This document shows positions 8,299 to 15,264 of a stretch of 64,000 nt of DNA, in pieces; the first letter of the stretch is position 1, and each line of letters opens with the position of its first letter. The translations under genes and the position numbers were made by a program. The notes below the pieces were generated by a model. That model searched no databases. It was not told the origin of the DNA and saw only the letters and a list, made by a program, of their open reading frames with translations. This DNA comes from Oharaeibacter diazotrophicus (GTDB lineage: Bacteria > Pseudomonadota > Alphaproteobacteria > Rhizobiales > Pleomorphomonadaceae). The stretch is from contig NZ_SNXY01000010.1 in the NCBI RefSeq assembly GCF_004362745.1, forward strand, positions 374,501 through 438,500, given 5' to 3'.

Positions 8299-10991
<2,693 letters not shown>

Positions 10992-10995
<4 letters not shown>

Positions 10996-12221: not shown

Positions 12222-12248
12222 CAGTGTTCAATTGCCGAGGCCTCTCGC

Positions 12249-12366
12249 CGGCTTGGTCCGCGCAGGCGGACCATCCACGGCACTGCCGTACGCGCCGGTC
12301 ATCGCCTTCCGTTCAACCGTCTCCGCCCGCGAGTTTCGTGGATGGTCCGCCTTCGCGGACCAAGTC
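12249..12366. repeat. Palindrome array, left part (copies A and B)
   Basis: Two hairpins with the core TGGTCCGC-N4-GCGGACCA lie at 12254-12273 (loop GCAG) and 12343-12362 (loop CTTC), 89 bases apart. Outside the stem one side reads CGGCT and the other TCCACG, which shows that the two copies point in opposite directions. The left copy begins only about 30 bases after the stop of the AT-rich HEPN gene. The right copy is about 115 bases from the end of the GIY-YIG gene. Confidence 0.92.
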
Positions 12367-12479
12367 GGTCGCGGCCGTGGGCGAGGGGAGGTGTCGGGTT
12401 CGCTCGGGTGCCGCCGTTGTCGACCGCCCATCGCAGTCCAATCCCACCTTCGGCCTCCCGCAGGCTATCCCGCGCTCGC

Positions 12480-12785
12480 TCACCTGCCTTCCACCATCCC
12501 TGCCACTTCCGCATACAAATCCCGCCACTCCGGGTTCAATCCCAAGATCAGTCTCACCTTCCAGGCGCGGTTCCACGTCTTGATCCGGCGCTCCCGCCAG
12601 ATGGCGTCGCCGATCTCCTCGTGGTCCTCGTACCAGACCAGCCGCGTGCAGCCGTAGCGCTTGGTGAAGCCGTCGATCAGGCCTTCGCGATGCTCGAAGA
12701 TGCGGCCGACGAGGTCGCTCGTCACCCCGGTGTAGAGGATGCCGTTGGGCCGGTTGGTCACGATGTAGACGGTGCCCGACTTCAT
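12480..12785 (-). CDS. Stand-alone GIY-YIG endonuclease-family protein
   Basis: A 101-residue protein that is little more than one GIY-YIG nuclease domain, related in fold to the N-terminal domain of UvrC. Key positions are visible: the VYI strand (residues 6-8), LYTGV (17-21, equivalent of YIG), Arg28 in VGRIFEH, Glu65 in WRERRIK (metal ligand) and the C-terminal LNPEWRDL typical of the short YhbQ-like group. Active-site residues look complete, so it is probably an active DNA nuclease. It is on the minus strand inside a regular palindrome array, with arrays on both sides, an arrangement like that of transposase-like genes with REP elements. A biological role is not known. The ATG at 12785 gives the usual family start. 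Confidence 0.9.
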   Translation of the reverse strand: MKSGTVYIVTNRPNGILYTGVTSDLVGRIFEHREGLIDGFTKRYGCTRLVWYEDHEEIGDAIWRERRIKTWNRAWKVRLILGLNPEWRDLYAEVAGMVEGR

Positions 12786-12841
12786 GACGTGCAGGGTGCG
12801 ACAGCGCCGTCATGGTTGCAAGGGTCGAGGCCGGAGACTTT

Positions 12842-13138
12842 CGTGGATGGTCCGCCTGCGCGGACCAAATCGGCTTCGGGGGAGGGGTGGCGACGGAGCG
12901 GTGGCAGTCGATGGGCGGAACCTCTCCACCCGGCTTGGTCCGCGCAGGCGGACCATCCACGGCCCTGCCCTAGGCGCGGCGGTCCCCGCTCTCCGCACGG
13001 TCGCTTCCGCGTGCGACTCTCGTGGATGGTCCGCCTCCGCGGACCAAGTCGGATCAGGGGAGGGAAGGCAACGGGGCGGCGGGCCTCGAGGCACGAACCT
13101 CTCCACCCGGCTTGGTCCGCGCAGGCGGACCATCCACG
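12842..13138. repeat. Palindrome array, right part (copies C to F)
   Basis: Four hairpins with the core TGGTCCGC-N4-GCGGACCA at 12848-12867, 12936-12955, 13027-13046 and 13113-13132. Their loops are CTGC, GCAG, CTCC and GCAG. Their flanks (TCCACG on one side, CGGCT on the other) show strict alternation of direction, and starts are 88, 91 and 86 bases apart. Two kinds of spacer also alternate: one ends in ACCTCTCCACCCGGCT before copies D and F, the other starts GGCCCTGCC after D, like the spacer after copy A. The whole is therefore a tandem array of an about 180-bp inverted unit. Confidence 0.93.
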
Positions 13139-13940: not shown

Positions 13941-14864
13941 TCACCGCACCTCGAACGACATCAGCGACGCATGGGCGCCGGCGTTGAAGTCGATCTTGCC
14001 CTCCTGCTCGACGGCGATGCAGGGGCCGACGTCGTAGGTGGTGCCGGGGGCGAGTTCGAGGATGGTGTTGATCGACAGCGAATTGTTCTGGGAGGCGTAG
14101 CCGAACCAGCCGAAGGTGTAATAGGCGAAGTCGGTGTGCAGCACGCCGTCGGCCTGGTCGCGCCAGCAGATGCCCCAGTCGACGCCCCACTGGCCGGAGA
14201 GGGCGCGCGCCGACATGCTGGCGGTGGCGAAGATGCGTTGCTTGGCGCTGGTGACGGGGATCGACACGAAGCCCGGCGAGAAGCCGAAGGTGTAGCCGCC
14301 GCGGCCGGTGTCCTTCGGCAAGCCGGCGACGGTCCAGGTGTCGAGGATGCCGCTCGGGCCCTGCGGGCCGGTGGCGCCGGTCGGGCCGGTGGGACCGGCG
14401 GCACCGGTGTCGCCCTTGGCACCGGCCGGCCCGGCGGCCCCGGTGTCGCCCTTCGCGCCCTTGGCGCCGGCGGGCCCGGCGGGGCCGGCCGCACCGGCCG
14501 GACCGGTGTCGCCCTTGGCGCCGGCGGGGCCGGTGTCGCCCTTGGGTCCCTTCGGACCGGTCGGGCCGCACTTGCCGAGGAACAGGTTGAGCGTGCCCTC
14601 GGCGGTCGAGAGCGCCAGCTTGCAGGTGGCGGGCCGGTAGGCGAGGGTGAAGCGGAAGCTGCCGTCGGCGGCGGCCTTGGTGCTGTAGGCGGTGCCGACG
14701 ATGCGGATGGTCAGGCCGGGTGTGGCGGCCTTGCCGGAGACCACGAGGCGGCCGGCGTCGATCTGGGCGACGGCGACGTCGAGGCCGGCGCCGGAGGTGG
14801 CGGCGGCGGCCGGCGCGGCGATGGCGGCGGCGAGCAGGGCGGCGAGCGGCAAGCGGTACGTCAT
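13941..14864 (-). CDS. Secreted collagen-like (Gly-X-Y repeat) protein
   Basis: A 307-residue protein with a signal peptide (about 1-22), a beta-rich N-terminal part (23-100) with three cysteines overall visible, and a collagen-like stretch of about 25 Gly-X-Y triplets (about 103-175) starting [16 protein letters not shown]. The C-terminal part (about 178-307) is a predicted globular head ([28 protein letters not shown]) which I do not recognise. Bacterial collagen-like proteins form trimers on the surface or outside the cell. The ATG at 14864 follows AGGAG by a suitable gap and gives a clean signal peptide; a longer frame to 15017 has no such support. It is a single gene, flanked by short direct repeats. 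Confidence 0.85.
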
Positions 14865-15264
14865 GACAAAGCTCCTGAGCCGGGGGCTTGGGTCGACCCG
14901 ATGGCTTACGGTCCGCCCGGGCGGGAGGACGCGGTCGCGAAACGGCCGACGGCACGCGGCCGCGGTGGCGGTCGCGCTGAAATCATGGTCGGCACGCCCG
15001 CGAAGGCGCGCCGGCAATCGATCGTGTCAACGCGCACATCCTGCCGGATACGTCCGGAAATGACAATGCGGCCGCCCGCCGCCCGCCTCCACCCCCTCGC
15101 GCCCGCCGGCGGCCCCGAGGCCCGACTGCCGACTGCCGAAGCCCTACTGCCTTCCCCCCCCCCATCACCCCCTCGTGACTTGCCGCCGTGTAACGCCCGC
15201 CTACCCTCCCGCGTATCAGGTGCGAGGCCGTGGACGGCCGGATGGTTTCGACGAGGAGGACGGC
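14865..15264. other. 400-base divergent spacer before msrP
   Basis: The spacer holds the leaders of the divergent collagen-like gene and msrP. The only structure I see is a short repeat cluster at 15114-15152 (CCCGACTGCCGACTGCC and GAAGCCCTACTGCC) matching the one at 13897-13930, followed by a run of ten C. No clear promoter was found by eye. Confidence 0.5.

Follow-up and report, generated by a model that had tools for sequence, protein, structure and literature searches.

A small GIY-YIG nuclease gene embedded in REP-type palindromes recurs across bacterial phyla and is a candidate partner for CGTC-tagged repeats

The 64-kb stretch of Oharaeibacter diazotrophicus DNA analysed here as a whole (the window) carries a stand-alone GIY-YIG nuclease gene inside an array of six palindromes, and it is one member of an association between REP-type repeats and GIY-YIG genes that spans phyla and is larger than a preliminary description of this DNA had supposed. 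The anatomy of these loci, the specificity of the association for one clade of GIY-YIG genes, the link between paralogue and repeat, and the occurrence, in one genus, of gene plus repeats on one replicon but not on its sisters are established by the observations reported below. In the reading that we favour and hold to be rather probable, a GIY-YIG nuclease dedicated to this REP/REPIN family stands where a RAYT would otherwise be, and this Slx1-like nuclease would act on the hairpins and either mobilise or maintain them. The gene is, in any case, a strong candidate partner for repeats that have so far been without one.

The 20-bp palindrome TGGTCCGC-N4-GCGGACCA is present in the six exact copies previously claimed, at window positions 12254, 12343, 12848, 12936, 13027 and 13113. 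A search allowing up to three mismatches located no further site in the 64-kb window, and none of 100 shuffles of the window reached six palindromes. The flanks of the units are asymmetric, with CGGCT, CGACT or CGATT on one side and TCCACG on the other, so that each unit can be given a direction (F or R) with the TCCACG side as reference. As also described before, the single gap of 505 bases between the 12343 and 12848 copies is the site of a minus-strand gene for a GIY-YIG protein of 101 residues. The features of the array are as follows.

12248 to 12279, plus strand: REP unit 1 (F), hairpin 12254-12273, TCCACG tail on the right; single-stranded DNA fold z -3.5
12337 to 12368, minus strand: REP unit 2 (R), hairpin 12343-12362; lies downstream of the GIY-YIG gene
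12248 to 12368, no strand: units 1 and 2 as a REPIN-like inverted pair with inward-facing tails; long hairpin predicted at -45.4 kcal/mol, z -7.4
12480 to 12785, minus strand: GIY-YIG nuclease gene, 101 aa, ATG start
12842 to 12873, minus strand: REP unit 3 (R), hairpin 12848-12867; lies upstream of the GIY-YIG gene
12930 to 12961, plus strand: REP unit 4 (F), hairpin 12936-12955
13021 to 13052, minus strand: REP unit 5 (R), hairpin 13027-13046
12930 to 13052, no strand: units 4 and 5 as a REPIN-like inverted pair with inward-facing tails; predicted fold of -51.9 kcal/mol, z -8.7
13107 to 13138, plus strand: REP unit 6 (F), hairpin 13113-13132

The order of the units is F R, gene, R F R F. The direction had been described as strictly alternating, a claim that we reject because the two units adjoining the GIY-YIG gene point the same way, which breaks the alternation across the gene. 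The array consists of two inverted pairs (12254/12343 and 12936/13027) and of single units at 12848 and 13113. Predicted folds of single units were better than those of shuffled DNA (z -3.5 to -4.0), and those of the pairs much more so (z -7.4 and -8.7). Among the neighbours of the array are an 898-aa ORF (8299-10995), which presumably encodes a UvrB-like protein and ends ∼1.3 kb before the first unit, and a minus-strand ORF of 358 aa (13941-15017) with collagen-like GPxG repeats.

Across the whole genome (4.99 Mb), 38 palindrome sites were found at up to two mismatches, 27 of them exact, against 0 sites for a control in which the pattern was reversed. Six of these 38 sites fall within the ∼900 bp of the array, a concentration that is far from random. 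The 32 sites outside the window, all of which were read, lie in 18 stretches, and 26 of them form 13 inverted pairs. All 13 isolated pairs run F..R with their TCCACG sides facing each other, 57-93 bp apart. Of the other stretches, one holds three units (one of them at three mismatches and hence outside the 38) and two hold single units, while two sites lacking the asymmetric flanks look like chance matches. Taken together, 16 stretches beyond the window contain the asymmetric unit, in most cases as a fixed inverted pair, and this fixed arrangement of dispersed palindromes is the REPIN plan. The likeness extends to the enzyme gene, since in REP/REPIN-RAYT systems dispersed palindromes also occur in inverted pairs and the enzyme gene is flanked by the same units. 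The enzyme itself differs, being a Y1 (IS200/IS605-like) transposase in RAYT systems and a GIY-YIG nuclease here. A search for Y1_Tnp (RAYT-type) genes gave 0 matches in the Oharaeibacter genome, and none either in 18 of the 22 genomes searched; a RAYT is therefore ruled out as the mobiliser in this genome.

The only Pfam match of the 101-aa protein is GIY-YIG PF01541 (E 2.1e-13, residues 4-76), and when the protein was searched against its own genome the only match was itself. Residues Y7, Y18, R28, H32, E65 and N84 are invariant in an alignment of 32 sequences; we take these to be the usual GIY-YIG active-site positions, all of which had been claimed to be present. The AlphaFold model is confident (pLDDT 93.9), and among known structures it most resembles those of Slx1 (Z 6.4-7.4) and of a plant Slx1-like domain (7.0), followed by BH0048 (Z 6.5) and the I-TevI domain (Z 5.5). 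Domain, invariant residues and fold place the protein in the GIY-YIG nuclease superfamily. A Z of ∼7 at the Slx1 level is modest and counts against the reading that we favour. To judge from the model, the window enzyme would be a minimal Slx1-like nuclease of ∼100 aa with little beyond the GIY-YIG fold, and such a fold suggests a protein that cuts branched or hairpin DNA.

The fold is common to the UPF0213 or Slx1-type nucleases (E. coli YhbQ, B. halodurans BH0048 and eukaryotic Slx1). YhbQ is 28% identical to the window protein over 75 aa and, unlike the window gene, E. coli yhbQ lies among ordinary genes with no tagged hairpin within 450 bp. GIY-YIG homing endonucleases of the I-TevI type also have the catalytic domain in common with the window protein, which differs from them in having no extra (NUMOD-type) domain by Pfam and a gene of its own. 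A defence-system or phage origin was rejected, the protein belonging to no PADLOC or PHROGs family. No NCBIfam family was found for it, and weak PDB sequence matches to a WD-40 protein and to replication-associated proteins were judged to be due to chance.

The repeats can be compared with the CGTC REP superfamily defined by Di Nocera, De Gregorio and Rocco in 2013, which includes Neisseria dRS3 and Rickettsia conorii RPE-4 and RPE-6 and was found in all orders of alphaproteobacteria then examined and in five phyla (PMC3733652). According to the parts of that paper drawn on here, no transposase seems to be dedicated to these repeats, the species that carry them have no RAYT or IS200 gene with such repeats at its flanks, and the CGTC-1 type is equated with dRS3 (PMC3733652). 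The same parts depict CGTC REPs as having a stem of 8-9 bp, a loop of 4-5 nt, a one-sided unpaired tag and a CCA tail, arranged mostly in inverted dimers and occurring mainly in alphaproteobacteria. All six window units have an 8-bp stem with a 4-nt loop and the CCA tail (...GGACCAT-CCACG), and the inverted dimer is found in 13 of 13 isolated pairs of the genome. The tag differs: it is CGGC, CGAC or CGAT in the window, where a strict search for unpaired CGTC, TGTC or CCTC returned 0 hits, and across the genome as a whole most copies have CGAC or CGGC in place of CGTC, with one CGTCA and one CGTCT (L039 and L041). Nor are the first two stem positions AT, the window units having a T-T mismatch at the first of them; three other genomes (G004, G006 and G007) have ATGGTCCGC, and their same-stem repeats carry CGTCA. 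Because the tag departs from CGTC, we filed the window repeats as a derivative of the superfamily and not as a strict member; they look like derivatives of CGTC-tagged REPs.

Hairpins that bear the marks of the superfamily were seen in relatives. Most of 60 homologue loci from relatives are flanked by hairpins of other sequences, for example TCCTGCGC, ATTCCCGC, ATCCTCGGG and TTGCCGGG, in which CGTC or TGTC stands unpaired at one side, opposite a CCA or CCA-like tail. Among 372 units collected at 132 of 153 loci, the tag was CGTC in 276 and TGTC in 69, a share that is partly built in because the search demanded a tag-like word, and the CCA tail, whose share is not built in, was present in 259. 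In Neisseria gonorrhoeae, ten ATTCCC-type hairpins lie within 700 bp of the gene, eight of them with ATTCCCGC; they are of the CGTC-1 type. The CGTC REP paper, in the parts drawn on here, gives no enzyme along with the repeats, whereas in the loci described here a GIY-YIG gene is flanked by them.

To quantify the association, we used three sets of loci, in which loci from related genomes are not independent. A GIY-YIG homologue was found in 39 of 60 genomes searched (the Oharaeibacter genome included), with 80 matches in all, and the relatives' set comprises the best 60 of the 79 non-window matches, a few rows being fragments of one gene. The plasmid-collection set comprises 12 of 33 plasmid records. 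The named-genome set comprises 80 of 574 candidate loci and leans to one repeat type because its query was built from proteins of repeat-bearing loci; one of its entries, L155, is the same locus as L094 and was counted in the 80 and dropped from the covariation, layout and wobble-pair counts. The same 8-bp hairpin was present on both sides of the gene within 400 bp at 23/60 relatives' loci, 32/80 named-genome loci and 8/12 plasmid-collection loci, compared with 0/380 control placements in twenty 20-kb stretches and 0/137 placements in the flanks of named loci. When a tag, a hairpin and a tail were required within 450 bp of the gene, the counts were 44/60, 69/80 and 6/12, respectively, and the controls gave 17/380 and 12/250. 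With one wobble pair allowed in the stem they became 49/60, 68/79 and 7/12 (controls, 29/380 and 19/249). A looser hairpin definition was discarded on account of its background (114/380 and 56/250). An even spread of palindromes, unconnected with GIY-YIG genes, which the preliminary description had named as counter-evidence, is not what these loci show.

Matching hairpins on both sides were found, among others, in Sphingomonas, Rhodanobacter, Xanthomonas, Neisseria gonorrhoeae, Dechloromonas and Endozoicomonas, and also in records titled Nitrospira, Planctomycetes, Deltaproteobacteria, Desulfobacteraceae and Ignavibacteria, several of which are MAGs. The association recurs in alpha-, beta- and gammaproteobacteria.

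A fresh sample was drawn from 299 Pseudomonadota genomes. Its best loci numbered 26, four of 30 having been dropped as coming from genomes used before, and 20 weaker loci of the clade and 18 loci of other GIY-YIG genes were hand-picked before their flanks were seen; one of the latter, the borderline L327, has no repeat and was counted apart from the remaining 17. Tagged hairpins were present at 23/26 best loci when long loops were allowed (21/26 without) and at 11/20 weaker loci (6/20 without), as against 0/17 other GIY-YIG genes with long loops allowed and 29/380 control placements scored in the same way. In a tag-free long-loop test that asked for the same hairpin on both sides, the counts were 15/26 best loci, 7/20 weaker loci and 2/17 other GIY-YIG genes, with controls at 0/380. 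Locus-level association and clade specificity together support the REP/REPIN-like plan, with a GIY-YIG nuclease where the RAYT would be, that had been put forward for the window. The flanks of some of the misses were read by eye (14 plus nine), and most had similar repeats with differing tags or loops; repeats recognised in this way, with wobble-pair stems, long loops or other tags, stand outside the strict counts. The preliminary description had named array-free homologues as evidence against the link. Such genes do exist, namely homologues in Planktothrix and Spirosoma, whose loci have no such repeats, L342, in whose flanks no repeat was visible by eye, the 17 genes outside the clade and E. 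coli yhbQ; most clade loci that were read, on the other hand, have repeats. The Planktothrix plasmid copy (L115:2684-3600) has a type IIL restriction enzyme on one side and DISARM drmA on the other, and belongs to no PADLOC family.

These data bear on two simpler explanations. Palindromes that flank a gene and fold well could serve the GIY-YIG gene and its neighbours as ordinary terminators or as hairpins for mRNA stability. We regard this as highly improbable given that 16 further stretches of the genome hold the asymmetric unit, for the most part in the fixed inverted pair, and that no tagged hairpin accompanies any of the 17 other GIY-YIG genes. A RAYT or another transposase might instead act on the repeats in trans, with the GIY-YIG link being secondary; mobilisation of CGTC REPs by RAYTs or other transposases is left open in the parts of the superfamily paper drawn on here (PMC3733652). 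This is very unlikely in our view, as the GIY-YIG clade sits inside the repeats and Y1_Tnp, the one transposase family covered by our search, is missing from the Oharaeibacter genome and from most of the genomes searched.

At the level of whole genomes the link was present and weaker than at loci. At least three exact CGTC-1 repeats were found in 18/72 gene-positive genomes (homologue E below 1e-20) and in 17/227 gene-negative genomes of the 299 Pseudomonadota, that is, an odds ratio of 4.1 (P = 2e-4, uncorrected for kinship). Gene-positive genomes with other repeat families score as negative in this count, because CGTC-1 was the sole family counted. Conversely, 17 of the 35 genomes with at least three exact CGTC-1 repeats were without the gene, including one with 69 copies (G095). 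The same was seen for other repeats: 116 exact window-type palindromes in G005 and 11 in G009, 26 and 19 TCCTNCGC palindromes in G018 and G019, and 13 ATTCCNGC repeats in G032 were all found in genomes with no homologue, and G002, with 34 window-type palindromes, has as its sole homologue a protein 47% identical that has other repeats beside it. A diverged GIY-YIG gene as the explanation for G005 was rejected, the other small GIY-YIG gene of that genome (L147) having no such repeats in a 3.3-kb stretch. Persistence of the repeats, then, does not require the gene. Loss of the gene, or its location in an assembly gap (drafts may break at such repeats), may explain the repeat-rich genomes without it.

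Among the 126 of 153 loci with an assigned repeat, protein and repeat distances were correlated (Mantel rho 0.535), and 0/999 permutations were as high (highest, 0.188). Paralogues within one genome mostly sit in different repeat families, which match those of their nearest foreign homologues. Within-genome comparisons were counted only when the foreign protein was clearly closer than the paralogue; the repeat resembled that of the closest foreign homologue more than that of the paralogue in 19 of them, with 2 ties and 2 going the other way. These comparisons are not independent. The covariation is non-monotonic, with a repeat distance of 2.44 at protein distances below 0.2 against 1.38 at 0.3-0.4; as repeats vary more at short than at middle protein distances, their turnover inside one genus seems to be fast. 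This covariation supports the idea that the repeat family follows the paralogue.

At 47 of 71 loci where the nearest tagged repeats lie on both sides of the gene the tags face outward, as is to be expected at the termini of a compact element. In Azospirillum lipoferum, sufB and sufC are separated by the gene together with four repeats; three Azospirillum relatives ∼94% identical have sufB and sufC and lack the gene-plus-repeat locus, and in the match listing eight more Azospirillum records match in two pieces with the middle left out. The A. lipoferum plasmid holds seven exact repeats and the three sister plasmids 0, and in the 50-kb Azospirillum stretches compared the only repeats are the four at the A. 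lipoferum gene. Three further A. lipoferum REPIN sites were read, and at two of them the relatives (three in one case, one in the other) have no room for repeats. No base-exact empty site or target duplication was seen, Azospirillum intergenic DNA being too diverged to resolve the boundaries. On plasmids of Sphingobium, strain TomTYG46 has the gene between two REPs in a unit of 382 bp end to end, whereas TomTYG64 and TomTYG74 have at the same place a single hairpin that carries two CGTC tags, one per side, and TomTYG72 has other, unrelated DNA (L258-L260 versus L124). The doubly tagged hairpin could be the scar of a deleted element. Annotation of the gene at two Sphingobium plasmid loci (L261 and L124) is inconsistent, reading 'excinuclease ABC subunit C' in one and 'hypothetical protein' in the other. 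Elsewhere, a broken GIY-YIG copy is flanked by two intact CGTC repeats (G021:C84:6375-6585).

A different view of this layout is that the gene is a selfish, homing-like passenger, for which a REP or the spacer of a REPIN is a safe harbour to insert into, while something else moves the repeats. Tags facing outward and tails facing the gene would also result from insertion into a REPIN spacer, and the repeat-rich genomes without the gene fit such a passenger. GIY-YIG domains are known from homing endonucleases, as the parts drawn on here of a phylogenomic study state (PMC1564403), and REPs have been reported as insertion targets of some IS, according to the parts used here of a further paper (PMC1525189). 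We nevertheless consider a passenger unlikely, in view of paralogues whose different repeat families match those of their nearest foreign homologues, of an Oharaeibacter genome in which Y1_Tnp is absent, and of Azospirillum stretches in which the repeats occur only at the gene. Another proposal is that the enzyme trims or resolves REP hairpins or cruciforms, so that REP-rich genomes tolerate them, and moves no REPs. An Slx1-like fold would suit this role, and in a section of a review on structure-selective nucleases, where Slx1-Slx4 is among the enzymes treated, YhbQ and YazA are named as Slx1 family members (PMC7017083). Such a maintenance function would leave unexplained both the flanking of the gene by its own repeat family and the presence or absence of the gene-plus-repeat locus between sister replicons, and some repeat-rich genomes do without the gene; we hold it to be quite unlikely.

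Under the reading that we favour, that of a REP/REPIN family with its own GIY-YIG nuclease, a REP or REPIN would extrude as a hairpin or cruciform, as its predicted fold suggests, most likely when single-stranded during replication. The nuclease would recognise its own hairpin and tag and nick at or near the tag or the loop. Host replication and repair might then help to copy the freed REPIN, or the longer REP-gene-REP unit, to another place or to join it there; we propose such help because GIY-YIG enzymes are not known to stay covalently linked to DNA. Each paralogue would serve its own repeat family, in keeping with the covariation. Against this reading weigh the repeat-rich genomes in which the gene is missing, the failure to find a base-exact insertion, the non-monotonic covariation, the 9/20 weaker fresh loci that show no tagged hairpin even when long loops are allowed, and the departure of the window repeats from the CGTC tag. 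A bolder version, to which we give about an even chance, is that these loci represent a new class of mobile element, made of a compact REP-GIY-REP unit and derived REPIN mini-elements and moved by a stand-alone GIY-YIG hairpin nuclease of ∼100 aa. If that were true, the nuclease would supply the CGTC REP superfamily with the enzyme it has been missing, dRS3 included (the Rickettsia elements lay outside the comparison), and its chemistry would be unlike that of Y1 transposases. With the gene embedded in CGTC REPs across phyla, the lack of a known transposase for these repeats turns into a direct test of hairpin cutting. Should the protein cut its own hairpin, REP-type repeats would have found unrelated enzymes as partners on at least two occasions, and an Slx1-like domain of ∼100 aa would be unusually small for an enzyme that mobilises DNA.

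Among the titles and abstracts listed in searches of the open-access literature, none linked GIY-YIG to REP or CGTC repeats. The main text of a 2025 REP survey contains no word beginning with transposase, nuclease or RAYT (PMC12306157), and the parts drawn on here of the GIY-YIG phylogenomics paper do not contain 'palindrom' (PMC1564403). In the flanks of GIY-YIG genes at three loci of one genus (L063, L070 and L072, genus g4), some REPs are split near the hairpin loop by a second palindrome of the GCTTGAATTCGCG...CGCGAATTCAAG kind, so that small palindromic elements are nested within one another.
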